From: Desulfobulbaceae bacterium
Lineage (GTDB): Bacteria; Desulfobacterota; Desulfobulbia; Desulfobulbales; SURF-16
Direction: 5' to 3'
DNA length: 64,000 bases
NCBI GenBank assembly: GCA_024637145.1
Contig: JAGXFQ010000021.1
Location: 1-64,000, forward strand
Part shown: one piece after another, positions 30,245-37,204 of the stretch
How positions within the stretch are numbered: the first letter of the stretch is position 1
Layout: each line of letters opens with the position of its first letter
Program-made: the position numbers and the translations under genes
The notes under the pieces: generated by a model
Databases searched by the model: none
The model's input: the letters and a program-made list of their open reading frames with translations, nothing else
What the model was told of the DNA's origin: nothing

Positions 30245-30970
30245 TTATTCAATGGGCAGGCCTGCCCTCACCCAGTTGATCATGCCGCCCTCCAGGATGG
30301 CCAGATCACGGTAGCCCATTTTGTAGAGGAAGCGGGCGCAAATGGGGGACTGCTTGCCGGCATGGTCAATAATGATGATGGCTTTGTCCCGTGGCAGCTG
30401 CTCATAGTGGCGATCCAGATCATCCAGGGGGATCTTCACCGCCTGCTTGATCTCGCCCACCTGGCTCACCTCCTCGCCGCGGATATCAAGGAGAAGAGCA
30501 CTCTCCATGCTCTTGTATACCGTCAGGGGCTCAAGGAGCAGGGGTTCTATCTCCGGATAGGAGGTGAAATGGCTCACAGGCAGGCCGCGCTCTTTCCATT
30601 CGGGCAGGCCGGCGGTATAGATTTTCACCTGCTCATAGCCGAACTCCATGGCCCGGCGGGCCGCGCGTCTGCTCTTGGTGCAGCGGATCCCCTTGCAGTA
30701 AAAAATGAGCAGGGTGGATTTGTCCTCCGGCAGCAGATGGTGGTGGGGCCGCATATGGCTGGCCGGGATGTTGACGGAATCGCTGATGGCCTCCTGGTTA
30801 TACTCAATGGGGCTCAGGGCATTGATGAGCAGGAAGGGGGCCGCTCCTTTTCTAACGGCCAGCAGTTCGTCGGTGCTGATGGTTTCAAAACGTTCCGCCT
30901 GGACAGGGGAAGCAAGAATGCCTAGCAGCATGGTTGTCAGCAAAACAAATACGGACAATCCGTTCTTCAT
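30245..30970 (-). CDS. Secreted two-domain rhodanese with C-x4-C active-site loop
   Basis: A 241-aa protein with a signal peptide (1-25, ending SPVQA). Rhodanese domain 1 (about 27-130) has the loop FYCKGIRCTKS, so two cysteines, C92 and C97, in C-x4-C spacing. Domain 2 (about 135-241) has the fold but IIDHAGKQS where the Cys should be, so it is inactive as a sulfurtransferase. It should act in the periplasm on sulfane sulfur. Its ATG overlaps the response regulator stop (30967-30970), so kinase, regulator and rhodanese form one operon. The C-x4-C loop matches the C-x4-U loop of the selenoprotein at 35018. Confidence 0.88.
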   Translation of the reverse strand: MKNGLSVFVLLTTMLLGILASPVQAERFETISTDELLAVRKGAAPFLLINALSPIEYNQEAISDSVNIPASHMRPHHHLLPEDKSTLLIFYCKGIRCTKSRRAARRAMEFGYEQVKIYTAGLPEWKERGLPVSHFTSYPEIEPLLLEPLTVYKSMESALLLDIRGEEVSQVGEIKQAVKIPLDDLDRHYEQLPRDKAIIIIDHAGKQSPICARFLYKMGYRDLAILEGGMINWVRAGLPIE

Positions 30971-32400
30971 GGGGTCTCCTTTTCCGACTTTTTCAGGCGC
31001 CAGTTAAGGGCCTGTCTGGTGATGCCCAGCATCTCCGCGGCAATGGCCTGGTTGCCCCCGGAGCGGAGCAGGGCCTCCTGGATAAGCAGGCCGTTGGCTT
31101 CCTTCAGGGTGGGCAGCTGTTCCAAGACGCCGAAGGGGGTGGCATCGTTCTTGTCGGGCAGGGCATGGGCAGAGCCCAAGTCCTTGCCGGGGGTCTGACT
31201 TTGGATATACTGTCTGAAGCGCTCCATGGAAAGCATCTTTTCCTTATGATGGCTCAGGGCATCAAAAATGAGGTGGTTGAGCTCCCTGATATTGCCCGGA
31301 TAATGATAGGTGGCCAGCAGAAGACGGAGCTGGTCCGGGTAGGCTGGTTTCTTTTTTGCTAATTTCTGGGCCCCCTCGGTGAGGAAAAAATCAAAGAGCA
31401 GGGGGATGTCATCAAGACGTTCGCGCAGGGGCGGGATGTGGATGTGGTGGGCCCGGAGGCGGAAAAAAAGATCGGTGCGGAAAGCCCCTTCTTTCTGCAG
31501 GGTGTCGAGATCGCGGTGGGTGGCGAAGATCATGCGGGCATCGGTCTTTCTGGCCAGATCACTGCCCAGCTGGAAATATTCCCGCTCCTGGAGGAGGCGC
31601 AGCAGCTTGACCTGGGAAGAAGGGGAGAGGTCGCCGATTTCGTCAAGAAAGAGGGTGCCCCCCGCCGCCTTCTTGATGAGGCCGTCCCGGGCGCTCTCCG
31701 CCCCGGTAAAGGCGCCTTTACGGTGGCCGAAAAGGGTGTCGGCGAACATGGTGTCATCCAGGCCGGCGGCATTTGCCACCACAAAGGGGGCCTCCTGGTG
31801 GCACAGCTTATGGAGGGCCTGGGCAAAAAGCTCCTTGCCCACTCCGGTCTCGCCGGTGATCAGCACCGGTTCACAGCTGGCGGCAATGGCCTCCATATAC
31901 TGGAACAGGGTCCGCATCTTTTTGTTGCCCGTGATGATGTGGGCAAAGGCCTCCGGATGGTCCAGCCTGTCTTCCAGAAAATGCTCTTTCAGGGAGGAGT
32001 TTTCCCGGCGCAGCTTGCCCACCTCAATGGCCCGTTGCACCCCGGAAATGAGCCTGTTTTCCTCTGAGACCTTGGTGAAATAATCAAAGGCTCCCTGCTT
32101 GATGCAGTTGACGGCGGTATCCACCTGGTCGAGACCGCTGATGATAATCACCGGGATATGGGGGAATTCCTCCACCGTTTTGATGAGAATTTCCGCGCCG
32201 TTGATGTGGGGCATGGTGAGGTCAAGCACCATCAACGCAATGGCTTCCCTGCCCACAATGTCCATGACTTCGCGGCTCTCCTTACAGGTGCGGATGTTGT
32301 TGATGCCGGCAGAGCGCAGGCTGAGGCTGAAGCTGTGCAGCCATGCCTCTTCATCATCAACAAGGAGAACGGGCTGGAGGGGATATTTATTTTTAGACAT
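30967..32400 (-). CDS. Sigma-54-dependent response regulator (NtrC family)
   Basis: A 477-aa activator. The receiver (1-125) has LVDDEEAW and the phospho-acceptor in VLDLTMPHING. The AAA+ domain (about 155-390) has Walker A GETGVGKELFAQ, the sigma-54 contact loop GAFTGAES and GTLFLDEIGDL. A Fis-type helix-turn-helix ends the protein (GGNQAIAAEMLGITRQALN). It overlaps the sensor kinase gene by 8 bases upstream and the rhodanese gene downstream. A consensus-like -24/-12 promoter lies beyond the kinase, before the divergent selenoprotein gene, and is its obvious target. Confidence 0.93.
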   Translation of the reverse strand: MSKNKYPLQPVLLVDDEEAWLHSFSLSLRSAGINNIRTCKESREVMDIVGREAIALMVLDLTMPHINGAEILIKTVEEFPHIPVIIISGLDQVDTAVNCIKQGAFDYFTKVSEENRLISGVQRAIEVGKLRRENSSLKEHFLEDRLDHPEAFAHIITGNKKMRTLFQYMEAIAASCEPVLITGETGVGKELFAQALHKLCHQEAPFVVANAAGLDDTMFADTLFGHRKGAFTGAESARDGLIKKAAGGTLFLDEIGDLSPSSQVKLLRLLQEREYFQLGSDLARKTDARMIFATHRDLDTLQKEGAFRTDLFFRLRAHHIHIPPLRERLDDIPLLFDFFLTEGAQKLAKKKPAYPDQLRLLLATYHYPGNIRELNHLIFDALSHHKEKMLSMERFRQYIQSQTPGKDLGSAHALPDKNDATPFGVLEQLPTLKEANGLLIQEALLRSGGNQAIAAEMLGITRQALNWRLKKSEKETP

Positions 32401-34696
32401 TGATCTTACCCTGGTCTAACGGCAGGCTGCTGCCTGGCTTAAAGGCAAGGGTCACGGTGGTGCCCTTGCCGAAATCGCTCTGGAACTGGATAGTGGCGTC
32501 ATGCTCCTTGATGATGCCGGCGGAAACCGAGAGGCCGAGCCCTGTCCCTCCCCTGGTCCTTTTGGAGGTATAAAAGGGATCCGTGACCTTGGTGATGGAC
32601 TGGGGATCAATGCCGCAGCCCTCATCGGTAATGGTCAGCTTGACCAGGTTTTCCTTGGGGTCAAAAGAGGAGGTGATGATGATCCCCTTTTCCGGGCCGC
32701 TTAAGGCTTCGCAGCTGTTTTGGATAAGGTTGATCACCACCTGTTCCAGACGTTGCCGGTTGCCGATGACAGGGGGGATTTTGGCCAGTCTGGTGCTGAA
32801 ATGGTTGGTGGCGTTCTTGATCTTGTTGAAGGTGAGACGGCTGGCGGCCTCCACCACGGAGTTGAGGTCAATCAGGTCAAAATGGGAGGCGCTGTCCTGG
32901 CGGGCATAATCCTTGAGATCCTTGACAATCTGTTTGATGCGGCGGCCGCTCTCCTCGATCTCCTCGCATAGCCGGGGGATCTGGTTCCGCATCTCCGGGT
33001 AGTCGAGGCCCGCCACCAGGAACTCGCCGTTTTCCTCATGAAACTCGTCCAGGATGGGCAGGATGGAGTTCCAGGAGCGGGCCAGCAGGGGGGTGTTGAG
33101 GAGAATAATGGAGTTGGGGTTGTTAATTTCATGGGCCACCCCGGAAACAAGCAGGCCCAGGGAGATCATTTTGTCGGCCTGAATGAGCTGCTGCTGCTGC
33201 TCATGGCTTTTGGCCTCGGCCCGGATGCGCTCTGTGATATCCCGGACAATCCACAGGGCATGCCATTGTTCAGTGATGTAGGCCGCGGACAGGGAGAGTT
33301 CCATCAGGATTTCCGAGCCGTTCTTTCGGGTGGCAGTGAGGGTGATGATCTCGTGCACCGGCAAGCCCTCCCCGTTCCCCCCCAGGGGCAGAACCCCTTC
33401 GCCGGTCTCCGGCCGGCGCGGCGTAATCAGAGTATGGATGGGCTGGCCCAGGGCCTCGCTGCTCTGATAGCCGAAAAAGGTCTCCGCTGCCTTGTTCCAG
33501 AAGGAGATGTCGCCGTGGTGGTCCATCATGATGATGGCGTCATGGGCCGAACTGGTCAGGTTGCGGAAATTTTTCTCACTCTCCCGCAGGGCGTTTTCGG
33601 CCTGGCTGCGGGCCGTCTGGATCTCATGGTAATGGTGGGCCATGCTGGTGAGATCCTTGGCCAGTTTCTTTAACTCCTGCGGACCCTGCCAGGAAAATTG
33701 CACGGGTTCATCATGGTTTAAGATGCGGTCAAGGCCCTGGACAATATCATTTTTGATGGTGGCCAGGTGACTGGCGATGAAGTGGGCAATGCCGAAGACC
33801 ATGAGGCCGGTGATGGCGACAATGAGGAAGATATTCCTGGTGATAGCGGCCTTCCAGGCCAGGGTGGCGGATTGGTCGATGGGGCTGGCAATCCACAGCA
33901 GGGGGCGATGGTCTGGATTAAAGGAGAGGGGAAGCCACGCCACCTGGTTGCCGGTGCTGGAGTCGATAATGGAGATATCCACCGGCTGGCTGAAATCCTC
34001 GGCAATGAAGGGTGGCGGGGTGTAGGGGGGGATGTCCGTGGGGGCATAGAGGACCTGGCGGTTGGTCAAAAGCCACAGCGAGTCGTTGAAATCGTGCAAA
34101 AAGGTGGTGAGATCTACCTTAATCACGGCCAGGCCGATGACCTCTTCAACCCGCCTGCCAATGGGGGTTACCATATAAAGGACATACTCTTCCTCGCTGC
34201 TGAAAGTATCGCTGGTCTGGTTTTCTATGCCCACAAAGACCTTCTGGGGCATCAGTTGCAGGCCTTGGAGGAAGGAGGCGTTCTGTTCCAGTCTTTTCAG
34301 CTGGCTGGCGGCAATCCTGGTGAGGCCGTGCTGGCCGCGGCTCATCCGAAAGGTCTCATTGCCGATAATGTCTACGAACTGGACATCATCAATCTGCAGG
34401 TCCGCCGCAAACCAGTCGGCAATGAGCAGTTCCATGCGCTCTTGCTGATCTGGGCTGGCCTCCATGATGATATCTTCGCTCACCGGCACCGCTGCCAGAC
34501 GGATGATGGATTTTTTCAGGCAGGTAACCTTGGCATTGAGCTTGGTGTAGCGGGTTTGGGTGAGGGCCACTGTTTCTAAGCGGGCGGCATCATCCAGCTG
34601 CTCCATGGCCTGGGGCAGGCTGGTGATAAGGAGAATGGCCAGGGGCAGCAGTCCCAGGGCGGTGATGGCGAAAAAAATAAGATAACGAAGATTCAT
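32393..34696 (-). CDS. Membrane sensor histidine kinase (periplasmic sensor, PAS, HisKA, HATPase)
   Basis: A 767-aa kinase. Helices at about 5-27 and 275-300 bracket a periplasmic sensor domain of about 250 residues (cache/CHASE-like, helix-rich at first). A HAMP-like stretch, a PAS domain (FRNLTSSAHDAIIMMDHHG), the phospho-His box VSGVAHEINNP (His near 520) and a HATPase domain (NLIQNSCEAL, DEGCGIDP, RGGTGLGLSV) follow. The ligand is unknown; given the linked rhodaneses, a sulfur, selenium or cyanide compound in the periplasm is a reasonable guess. Paired with the overlapping response regulator gene. Confidence 0.9.
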   Translation of the reverse strand: MNLRYLIFFAITALGLLPLAILLITSLPQAMEQLDDAARLETVALTQTRYTKLNAKVTCLKKSIIRLAAVPVSEDIIMEASPDQQERMELLIADWFAADLQIDDVQFVDIIGNETFRMSRGQHGLTRIAASQLKRLEQNASFLQGLQLMPQKVFVGIENQTSDTFSSEEEYVLYMVTPIGRRVEEVIGLAVIKVDLTTFLHDFNDSLWLLTNRQVLYAPTDIPPYTPPPFIAEDFSQPVDISIIDSSTGNQVAWLPLSFNPDHRPLLWIASPIDQSATLAWKAAITRNIFLIVAITGLMVFGIAHFIASHLATIKNDIVQGLDRILNHDEPVQFSWQGPQELKKLAKDLTSMAHHYHEIQTARSQAENALRESEKNFRNLTSSAHDAIIMMDHHGDISFWNKAAETFFGYQSSEALGQPIHTLITPRRPETGEGVLPLGGNGEGLPVHEIITLTATRKNGSEILMELSLSAAYITEQWHALWIVRDITERIRAEAKSHEQQQQLIQADKMISLGLLVSGVAHEINNPNSIILLNTPLLARSWNSILPILDEFHEENGEFLVAGLDYPEMRNQIPRLCEEIEESGRRIKQIVKDLKDYARQDSASHFDLIDLNSVVEAASRLTFNKIKNATNHFSTRLAKIPPVIGNRQRLEQVVINLIQNSCEALSGPEKGIIITSSFDPKENLVKLTITDEGCGIDPQSITKVTDPFYTSKRTRGGTGLGLSVSAGIIKEHDATIQFQSDFGKGTTVTLAFKPGSSLPLDQGKINV

Positions 34697-34922: not shown

Positions 34923-34938
34923 TGGCATGGGGATTGCT
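34923..34938 (+). promoter_or_regulatory. Sigma-54 (-24/-12) promoter of the selenocysteine rhodanese gene
   Basis: TGGCAT-GGGGA-TTGCT matches TGGCAC-N5-TTGCW at all but one base, with the correct GG-to-GC spacing. It lies 80 bases before the rhodanese ATG and beside a divergent operon encoding a sigma-54 activator. Confidence 0.75.
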
Positions 34939-35017
34939 ATACTCTAGACGTGACGATGTATGTCCACCTGGCGTTGTGAAACGTCCTCTTTACTTCCCAT
35001 TTTTTAAAGGAGTTGCC

Positions 35018-36343
35018 ATGAAGCATAAAATCTTAAAGCGCCTGCTCCCCCTGGCCTGCGGGGCGGCATTATTTGCCACCTGCGGCGCTCAGTATGAGCT
35101 GGTGTACGCCACAGACCACGCCGCACCAGCAATAAAGACGGAGGCCACGAAAAACGACAACGTCTTCAAGGGAGAAGTTGTCGGCCTCTCCAATAAGGCC
35201 AAGAGTATTTCCCTGAAAGTCGGCAAAGGTGATAAGGCCAAGACCGTGATGCTCAAGTTCGACGACAACACCAAGGGCATTGAGCACGCCGTTAAGGGAC
35301 ATGCCGCCATCATTGAATTCACCGGCACGGGCAAAGATCGCCTGGCCACGGTGATCAAACCGAAACTGGCCAAAATGCCCAAGGGCACCTCAGAGATGAA
35401 GCCTGCTGAACTGTTAGCCCTTATGGGCTCAGGCCAGAAATATGTTCTGGTGGACTCCAGGCCATCCTCTCGCTTCCACGAAGGAACTGTTCCCGGTTCC
35501 ATCAATATCCCTGTTGAGGCCATGAAGAAAAAGGGAGCAGAACTGCTGCCCGCTGATAAGGATATCCAGCTTGTTTTTTACTGTGGAGGTCCCACCTGAG
35601 GTATGTCAACATCTTCCGCCGGTCTGGCGGTCAAATTGGGATATACCAATATTAAGGTAATGCTTGCCGGTGTTCCGGGCTGGAAAAAGGCCGGGAACCA
35701 TGTGGTGGCAAGTGATGAATTTGTCAAGAAAGGGAATATCGTGCTGGTGGACCTGCGTTCCAGCAAGGAATACGAGGCGGGTCATATTCCCCGGGCCCAT
35801 AATATCCCCATGGCGGATATTGAGTATGCCGAGTATGATTTCCCCTCCAGCATGGCGGCTCCCATAGTGGTCTATGGCAATGGTGACGATGCCAAGAAGG
35901 CCTATAAAATTATCAAGGGCTGGGGTTACACGAAAAGTTCCCTGGCCGGCATGGATTTTGCCGCCTGGAAAAAGGCAGGCGGACCTGTTGAGACCGGTGT
36001 CAGCCCGGAAGAAATCGTCTGGAAGCGGGTGCTGGGCAAGCATGAGATCAGCATTGCCGAGTTCCTGAAGGCCGTTGAGGGTGCTGATGATACATTGATT
36101 ATCGATGTCCGGAGTAAGGATGAGGCCGCTACCGGCAAATTCGCCAATGCCCGCCAAATCCCCCTGGACGAGATCCAGAACCAGCTGGAATCCCTGCCCA
36201 AGGATAAGGAGCTGCTCGTCCATTGCACCACCGGTGCCCGGGCTGAAATGGCCGCCACCGAACTGCGCAATGCCGGTTTTAAGAGCCGTTATCTGGTGGC
36301 CAATGTCGAGTGTGATGGGACCGAATGTGAGGTCTCGGAATAG
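35018..36343 (+). CDS. Secreted three-domain rhodanese, selenoprotein with in-frame UGA (C-x4-U)
   Basis: The 441-residue reading runs through a TGA at 35597-35599, read as Sec (residue 194). A signal peptide (1-31) is followed by a small beta-rich domain (about 47-118) and three rhodanese domains. Domain 1 (about 121-218) carries FYCGGPT-U-GMS, that is C189-x4-U194; domain 2 (about 225-325) has no Cys in its loop (VVYGNGDDAKKA); domain 3 (about 340-435) has a standard loop HCTTGARAE. Frame and rhodanese homology continue directly after the TGA (LGYTNIKV...AGVPGWKKAG). The rhodanese at 30245 has Cys where this has Sec. A SECIS-like hairpin follows the UGA. Good SD AAAGGAG. Periplasmic redox or sulfur/selenium transfer is inferred. 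Confidence 0.85.
35597..35630 (+). promoter_or_regulatory. UGA codon and bacterial SECIS-like hairpin
   Basis: TGA at 35597-35599, then after 16 bases a stem CCGCC / GGCGG (35616-35620 and 35626-35630) with the five-base loop GGTCT. The apical GGUCU matches the loop of the E. coli fdhF SECIS bound by SelB, and its distance from the UGA (21 bases to the loop) is in the working range. Confidence 0.75.
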
Positions 36344-36408: not shown

Positions 36409-36446
36409 GAGGGGTGGCGGCTCAGCTGTCACCCCTCTTTTTTTTT
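36409..36446 (+). terminator. Rho-independent terminator after the selenoprotein gene
   Basis: Stem GAGGGGTG / CACCCCTC with a 13-base loop, followed by nine T. Confidence 0.9.
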
Positions 36447-36469: not shown

Positions 36470-36757
36470 TGTCAGGGGAATCAAAAAAAACAGCAGATTG
36501 TCACTCTTTTGCGTCTCACCCTTCACCTGCACAAAATAAGATGTCCTATGTAATTGCATGATTCCTGTTCAACACAAAGGCACAAAGGCACAAAGATTTA
36601 GGACCTTTATGCTCTTTGCACCCCTCAAGGGGATATTGTAAAGAATGTCTCTGTGTTTTTGTGTCTCTGTGTCTTTGTGGTGAAAAAAAGGATCTCCCCC
36701 TGTGTCAGGATACCTTTCGCCTCTGGACTGCCGCGTCGCGGTACTCCTCGCCGTGAC
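36470..36757 (+). repeat. Dispersed repeat family A, copy 1
   Basis: About 288 bp. It runs from GTGTCAGGGGAATC, through CTTCACCTGCACAAAATAAG, a CACAAAG...CTTTGTGG hairpin with an inner CCCCTCAAGGGG, to CTCTGGACTGCCGCGTC. Other copies are at 51881, 52087, 53446 (plus) and 61096, 61932 (minus). Confidence 0.85.
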
Positions 36758-36866
36758 GAAGGAGGTGGGCATGATTGCCGCAGAGTGGTGATAAAAAAAA
36801 GAAGAGAGATGTGGGAAGCGGCTTTAAAAAAACTTCCTCACCGTGTACTTTGGAGAAGATCTTGCG

Positions 36867-36889
36867 GGGACCCAGACGGGCGTCCCCTC
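36867..36889 (+). other. GC hairpin in the leader of the AF1514-like gene
   Basis: GGGGAC ... GTCCCC stem about 20 bases before the SD of the gene at 36908. No T-tract follows. It could affect translation or mRNA stability; no known riboswitch class is recognised. Confidence 0.35.
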
Positions 36890-36907
36890 GCCAGCAGAGG
36901 AGGAGCA

Positions 36908-37204
36908 ATGATGGCCGAAAACATTCCCTTAACCGCAGCGGCTATGGCCCCGGTAGCCCTTCTTGTTGACGGGGTCGGGCTGAACTGGGATCTGGCCCGT
37001 GATCTGGCCTATGCCATTGCCAACCGTCATGATGAAGATCCCATGCTCATCTCCTGGTTTGACAAGACCACCGGCAAGTTTTCACCCTCCTGTTGTCAGT
37101 GCGAGTTGGCGGCCGGCCCGGCCTGGGAAATCTATGGCAAAAACCATGGCGGCCGCTTCCGGATCAGTATCAACAACGACACCTATGTTTTTATTTATAG
37201 CTAG
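36908..37204 (+). CDS. AF1514-like small protein (DUF5619)
   Basis: A 98-aa soluble protein with DGVGLNWDLARDLAYAIA, DPMLISWFDKTTGKFSPSC and a C-terminal ISINNDTYVFIYS. The pattern (VEG-LD-D...DPMLLSWYD...YSP...Y.F) is what I recall of the AF1514/DUF5619 family found in archaea and sulfate reducers; function unknown. A CC pair and a further Cys lie in the middle (SCCQCE). GGAGGAG precedes two adjacent ATG codons, so the start may be three bases later. Confidence 0.65.
   Translation: MMAENIPLTAAAMAPVALLVDGVGLNWDLARDLAYAIANRHDEDPMLISWFDKTTGKFSPSCCQCELAAGPAWEIYGKNHGGRFRISINNDTYVFIYS

Follow-up and report, generated by a model that had tools for sequence, protein, structure and literature searches.

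A predicted exported rhodanese selenoprotein with a Cys-x4-Sec loop in a Desulfobulbaceae bacterium

The rhodanese gene and its surroundings

The window analyzed here, a 64-kb stretch of DNA, is located in contig 34 of the draft genome (41 contigs, 86% complete) of a Desulfobulbaceae bacterium. Two same-phase open frames separated only by the TGA at 35597–35599 had been noticed in it; translation of 35018–36343 yields one continuous frame of 441 residues with this single internal TGA at codon 194 and a TAG at its end (Table 1). The read-through protein, MKHKILKRLL...YCGGPT-U-GMSTSSAGLAVKLGY..., matches the Pfam family Rhodanese in three stretches with 138 bits, as compared to a gathering cut-off of 22.2. 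Residues 129–225 form a rhodanese domain which is unbroken across the TGA, in agreement with the uninterrupted homology claimed by the original prediction; the upstream half by itself scores 36 bits. The active-site loop reads YCGGPT-U-GMS, and its UGA indeed stands at the second Cys of the C-x4-C loop, as present in the motif YCKGIRC of the rhodanese encoded by 30245–30970. Routine gene prediction would divide this gene into pieces. A search of the whole window against Rfam at the gathering threshold gave no match.

Table 1. Features of the rhodanese locus (positions in the 64-kb window)
Feature	Position	Strand	Basis or remark
Second, two-domain rhodanese with YCKGIRC loop (Cys-x4-Cys) and signal-like N-terminus	30245..30970	-	
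Sigma-54 activating response regulator	30967..32400	-	neighbors 60-87% identical in 18 loci
PAS histidine kinase, divergently transcribed	32393..34696	-	orthologue linked in other families
Sigma-54 promoter-like site TGGCATGGGGATTGCT	34923..34938	+	95 nt ahead of start codon
Ribosome binding site AAAGGAG	35006..35012	+	sequence
Predicted selenoprotein gene	35018..36343	+	441 aa ending in TAG, codon 194 for Sec; homologues cover its length with a single TGA or without any
Signal peptide region, residues 1-31	35018..35110	+	sequence, alignment; this copy reads ATCG
CusF/SilF-like OB domain, residues 46-120	35153..35377	+	AlphaFold2 pLDDT 90; Foldseek 1zeq TM 0.76
Rhodanese domain 1, residues 129-225, loop Cys189-GGPT-Sec194	35402..35692	+	
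Cys189 codon TGT, first residue of loop	35582..35584	+	Cys in 109/110 homologues
GGAGG, Shine-Dalgarno-like, ends 7 nt before TGA	35585..35589	+	kept with Sec, rare with Cys
TGA, almost certainly read as selenocysteine (residue 194)	35597..35599	+	82 TGA, 28 Cys, 0 other, n=110 homologues
bSECIS hairpin CCGCC-GGTCT-GGCGG	35616..35630	+	core stem formed by all 82 Sec genes; pairs covary
Rhodanese domain 2, loop without Cys	35723..35974	+	
Rhodanese domain 3, loop HCTTGAR, Cys403 at 36224-36226	36056..36292	+	
Terminator-like hairpin, then T run	36409..36446	+	sequence and fold

The protein had been described as secreted. Export is supported by predicted N-terminal signal sequences across the family; a lipobox-like site, however, was recognized by a simple pattern in just 28 of 107 members. 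Congeners possess a lipobox-like Cys in the signal peptide region, where the present copy has ATCG instead. Residues 46–120 gave no Pfam family at cut-off. The succession of three rhodanese domains, one with the Sec loop, one with a loop devoid of Cys and one with a standard Cys loop, is borne out by the Pfam stretches, the alignment and the structural model. In the AlphaFold2 model (pLDDT 89), Cys189–Sec194 lies between a strand (184–188) and a helix (196–206), and Cys403 follows a strand (398–402), with a helix starting at 407; judged from the model, the Cys189–Sec194 loop is the rhodanese active-site loop. Cys403 is invariant in a 38-sequence alignment and absent in a few of the 110 relatives compared, e.g. 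L098, L104 and L108. Ten relatives (L148, L152–L158, L161 and L133), nine of them outside the order, contain a CxxCH motif just ahead of the OB domain, a possible site of covalent heme attachment; such a heme might serve as electron source for the Cys-Sec pair.

Orthologues of the divergently transcribed kinase and of the response regulator adjoin the rhodanese gene in 18 loci each, belonging to several families. The sequence TGGCATGGGGATTGCT scores 24.2 out of 24.7 on the sigma-54 consensus, and a corresponding site is found at the same place (–95/–96) in three congeners. Upstream of genes with linked regulators, sigma-54 scores exceeded 99% of the background in 11 of 20 cases, as compared to 13 of 88 other genes. 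Sigma-54 control of the rhodanese gene by the linked kinase/response regulator pair is thus probable. Several other neighbors recur, for example a purD-like gene, but only in some subgroups of the order, and were regarded as having no link to the rhodanese gene.

In two more distant relatives (L155:3380–4189 and L157:2–877), a divergent PAS sigma-54 activator replaces the two-component pair, and a sigma-54 site is located upstream of the rhodanese gene. A small DUF5619 open reading frame (36653–37204) adjoins the gene in the window; at 12 other loci, related frames likewise lie close to the rhodanese gene.

Decoding of the UGA at codon 194

The window contains 2263 TGAs, 156 of which (7%) precede a hairpin that is at least as good as the one after codon 194 and conforms to the bSECIS limits, as well as six pairs of same-phase frames (≥150 codons) with a TGA between them; the other pairs inspected are antisense frames or adjacent genes. 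Since such single-locus signals lie within the range of chance and prove little by themselves, the locus had to be compared with other genomes, and this comparison is decisive.

A search of the same order detected homologues (E up to 1e-20) in 175 out of 258 genomes; they are mostly of the Sec type and belong to sulfur-cycle bacteria. Among the matches listed in the order, most have exactly one TGA and most others none, and a phylum-wide search yielded more TGA-containing homologues in several other families. In a comparison set of 110 distinct homologue sequences, codon 194 is TGA in 82 and TGC or TGT in 28, with no other codon observed, which is the Cys/Sec exchange that the original prediction had proposed to look for; residue 189 is Cys in 109 of the 110. 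In the 28 Cys homologues, the gene is a single uninterrupted frame. On a tree built without the loop columns, parsimony placed 18 changes between Sec and Cys, at least 11 of them on well-supported branches. Where the Cys copy alone was found, selA was present in 23 of 24 genomes, and therefore the exchange usually occurs where the Sec machinery persists. In congener pairs, dN/dS is about 0.11–0.23 on both sides of the TGA, and the substitution rates indicate purifying selection on either side. Residue 194 has alternated solely between Sec and Cys in evolution, and the gene almost certainly encodes a selenoprotein, as had been suggested from the single locus. The many natural exchanges, with the machinery mostly retained, amount to a natural experiment on the benefit of Sec and on its RNA signals.

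Bacterial SECIS elements, according to the bSECISearch model, are small stem-loops with a G in the first two loop bases, located 16–37 nt after the UGA. The GC stem with the loop GGTCT, previously noted at a distance suitable for SelB, conforms to this model: the hairpin (35616–35630) extends from +17 to +31, and its loop starts 21 nt after the TGA. All four core pairs (+18 to +30) are formed in each of the 82 TGA genes, whereas 10.8 core stems were expected and 22 was the maximum in 2000 synonymous reshuffles, in which codons were drawn for each gene from its own codon usage. Six of the 28 Cys genes have the core stem (2.9 expected). Both third-base pairs covary, pair 18–30 being CG in 75 genes, GC in four, and AT, TA and TG in one each, and pair 21–27 being CG in 79 and AT in three. 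Codons 201, 202, 203 and 204, which make up the hairpin, occupy ranks 1–4 for synonymous conservation among 124 eligible codons. Gly202, whose codon supplies the GG of the loop, occurs in 67 of 82 Sec genes vs. 6 of 28 Cys genes. In the Cys genes L125 and L126, placed beside a Sec sister, the stem was lost via a change from GCG to GCA.

As regards the sel genes that had been expected in the genome, the host possesses a tRNA-Sec (selC) with UCA anticodon, a selB scoring above cut-off, and a Sec-type selD which itself contains a TGA Sec codon within the motif SGUAAKIS; selA, however, gave no match in the 86% complete draft. Nineteen of 22 genomes of the host's family, including all three congeners, contain selA, and its absence here is most simply explained by a gap in the draft. 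Two other, near-complete genomes (G115 and G119) contain the Sec version of the rhodanese gene and gave no selA match with the model used; they may have a divergent selenocysteine synthase, or lack the stretch.

Codons before the UGA contain GG[AG]GG in 57 of 82 Sec genes vs. 3 of 28 Cys genes, and in 57 of 68 vs. 3 of 24 if only genes encoding Gly190-Gly191 are considered. GGA at codon 190 was observed 43 times, with 13.5 expected and a maximum of 26 in 5000 draws. The motif tracks Sec in 8–9 of 10–11 independent pairs, with almost none to the contrary (median p 0.008–0.016). It does not occur in the host selD, nor in two other rhodanese genes with in-frame TGA. Its geometry relative to the UGA is close to that of the prfB frameshift site. 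Tentatively, GGAGG/GGGGG might be a second signal of the Sec codon, either holding the ribosome via 16S rRNA and thereby favoring SelB, or restarting translation of the second half under selenium shortage, although we consider such a role rather doubtful. If true, the upstream motif would be a bacterial Sec-decoding element of a kind for which no description was found.

The motif also bears on a reading in which translation stops at the UGA and re-initiates two codons on, at the ATG at 35603, to give separate halves, perhaps beside the Sec form. ATG is found at codon +2 in 66 of 82 Sec genes vs. 11 of 28 Cys genes, upstream GGAGG and this ATG are both present in 55 vs. one, and the association of GG[AG]GG with Sec in the independent pairs, as well as a Met196 codon preceded by GGAGG, would suit such a restart. 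However, the break would fall within a folded domain, the second half would be without a signal peptide, and GGAGG and ATG are 13 nt apart. Moreover, the uninterrupted frames of the 28 homologues do not fit separate halves, within the following 12 codons three Sec genes have no start codon at all and nine have no ATG, and the hairpin from +17 to +31 and its covariation would be left unexplained. Two products are thus very unlikely, and insertion of Sec is the preferred reading. An open frame by itself cannot tell which amino acid is inserted, but decoding of the UGA as another residue, by suppression or a changed code, is hardly credible in view of the hairpin, the exchange with Cys only, the presence of the Sec machinery, and the TGA at the Sec position in selD of the same genome. 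A lone stop in one genome could be a sequencing error or mark a pseudogene or decayed gene; such a reading is already refuted by the homologues, in 82 of which TGA occurs at the same codon, with replacement by Cys only and low dN/dS on both sides.

A possible role in sulfane-sulfur reduction

We propose that SelB, directed by the hairpin, inserts Sec at UGA codon 194, which would place it at loop position 6 of domain 1, five residues after Cys189, as a putative redox pair. Cys403, in the standard CxxGxR sulfurtransferase loop of domain 3, and/or Cys189 would accept sulfane sulfur as a persulfide, presumably from extracytoplasmic thiosulfate or polysulfide. Attack of Sec194 on the Cys189 persulfide would release sulfide and form a Cys-Sec bond, to be reduced by an electron donor outside the cytoplasm. 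The divergent histidine kinase and the response regulator would activate expression of the gene via sigma-54. The Cys-Sec mechanism is suggested because of the position in the loop, general rhodanese and selenol chemistry, and the analogy to TsoB (see below). That the protein is an exported sulfane-sulfur enzyme seems quite likely, and a reductive Cys-Sec cycle has slightly less than an even chance. The explanation as a whole, i.e., an exported selenoprotein which releases sulfane sulfur by means of a Cys-Sec pair and is under sigma-54 control, is moderately probable. With a Cys-Sec pair in its loop, a rhodanese would become a reductase rather than a carrier of sulfane sulfur, which would be relevant to the still unsolved initial steps of sulfur disproportionation.

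In the published proteome of Desulfolithobacter dissulfuricans GF1, thiosulfate disproportionation was the only condition in which the rhodanese GF1_13980 was seen (PMC9751629). The genome taken to be that of strain GF1 (G071) contains a homologue with one TGA at 1.5597–1.5610 Mb (G071:C1:1559692–1560996). Interpolation of locus tags between the Dct genes GF1_10880–10900 (DctM taken at 1.228 Mb) and HynAB, GF1_18090–18100 (2.011 Mb), placed GF1_13980 near 1.564 Mb, with the other nearest rhodanese genes at 1.31 and 1.65 Mb, suggesting that GF1_13980 probably is this homologue. As the gene would be divided by routine gene prediction, the answer may already lie in proteomes of cultured relatives. 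A three-rhodanese protein in a Psr operon, described in the D. dismutans paper, is a candidate relative of the family.

Alternatively, the selenoprotein might serve in the handling of metals or selenium oxyanions, or in redox sensing, rather than in sulfane-sulfur reduction. The N-terminal domain shares its fold with the copper/silver chaperones CusF and SilF, and the gene adjoins a two-component system. In CusF, the metal is bound by Met, Trp and His ligands; in the family alignment, however, the copper ligands are not conserved in the OB domain. Two of the rhodanese loops retain their sulfurtransferase Cys residues, and the probable connection of the GF1 homologue with thiosulfate disproportionation also argues against this alternative. 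We consider it unlikely, and sulfane-sulfur reduction by an exported selenoprotein remains the favored explanation.

Relation to known selenoproteins and rhodaneses

Rhodaneses containing Sec have been listed since 2005; they appear in selenoproteome surveys, and a Sec rhodanese-like domain protein was also listed in a paper on a marine deltaproteobacterial genome. A review from 2026 distinguishes five forms of rhodanese selenoproteins (PMC13188914). Form 1 (PF00581, UxxS, WP_010941598.1), which appears in lists of the prokaryotic selenoproteome (PMC13188914, PMC9312934), resembles the present protein in having a rhodanese domain and a Sec followed by x-x-Ser: the sequence UGMS fits the UxxS motif of the review, and distant relatives have UVLS. 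By its motif, the family is a likely candidate for form 1; as far as these form 1 entries go, neither a Cys-x4-Sec pair nor a domain layout nor any regulation is mentioned.

TsoB (NF045694, UxxxxU) is presented in the review entry as a rhodanese that carries two Sec five residues apart and is joined to a DsbD-like portion (PMC13188914). Domain 1 is matched by the rhodanese part of TsoB (best stretch, residues 140–232), and both proteins have a chalcogen pair five residues apart, whereas two Sec residues and the DsbD-like part are features of TsoB. With 72.8 bits in the rhodanese part only, as compared to a curated cut-off of 805, the protein was not assigned to TsoB. Similarly, the model NF041203 (rhodanese_LYCAU, rhodanese-related (seleno)protein, CxU) has Cys and Sec close together in a rhodanese, but describes a single domain of 126 positions with a Cys-x-Sec motif; the protein scored 56.5 bits against a curated cut-off of 115 and was not assigned to it.

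The closest folds to the whole protein are 1yt8, EanB and YnjE, with a different domain arrangement. E. coli YnjE (2wlr, 3ipo), which is exported, and EanB (6ktw) likewise comprise about 410–460 residues and several rhodanese domains; they differ in not being selenoproteins, in sharing 15–16% identity, and in the arrangement of their domains (TM about 0.22). The likeness to the periplasmic Cu/Ag chaperones CusF and SilF is one of fold (TM 0.76), their metal ligands not being conserved here. ExtH of Geobacter, a 49-kDa rhodanese (PMC5877670), was dropped from consideration, because the two relatives inspected from elsewhere in the phylum have other neighbors.

Two additional rhodanese genes with in-frame TGA were observed. 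One, in the host genome (L178, G000:C8:24977–25267, minus strand), encodes a single-domain protein with signal-like N-terminus and a TGA at the Cys-x4-Sec position (FYCRGYSUGLAP). The other, in genome G071 (L163, G071:C1:813409–813660), carries its TGA at the catalytic position, the first of the loop (IIFYURSGKR), and resembles the UxxG form.

Our literature search found no functional study of this selenoprotein family and no paper on its domain architecture. The original prediction had regarded the architecture with its linked regulators as undescribed; the linkage is conserved in several families, but Sec rhodaneses were already catalogued. Hence the kind of protein is known, and the family is widespread among sulfur-cycling bacteria; the new parts are the Cys-x4-Sec anatomy, the regulation, and the GGRGG motif upstream of the UGA.
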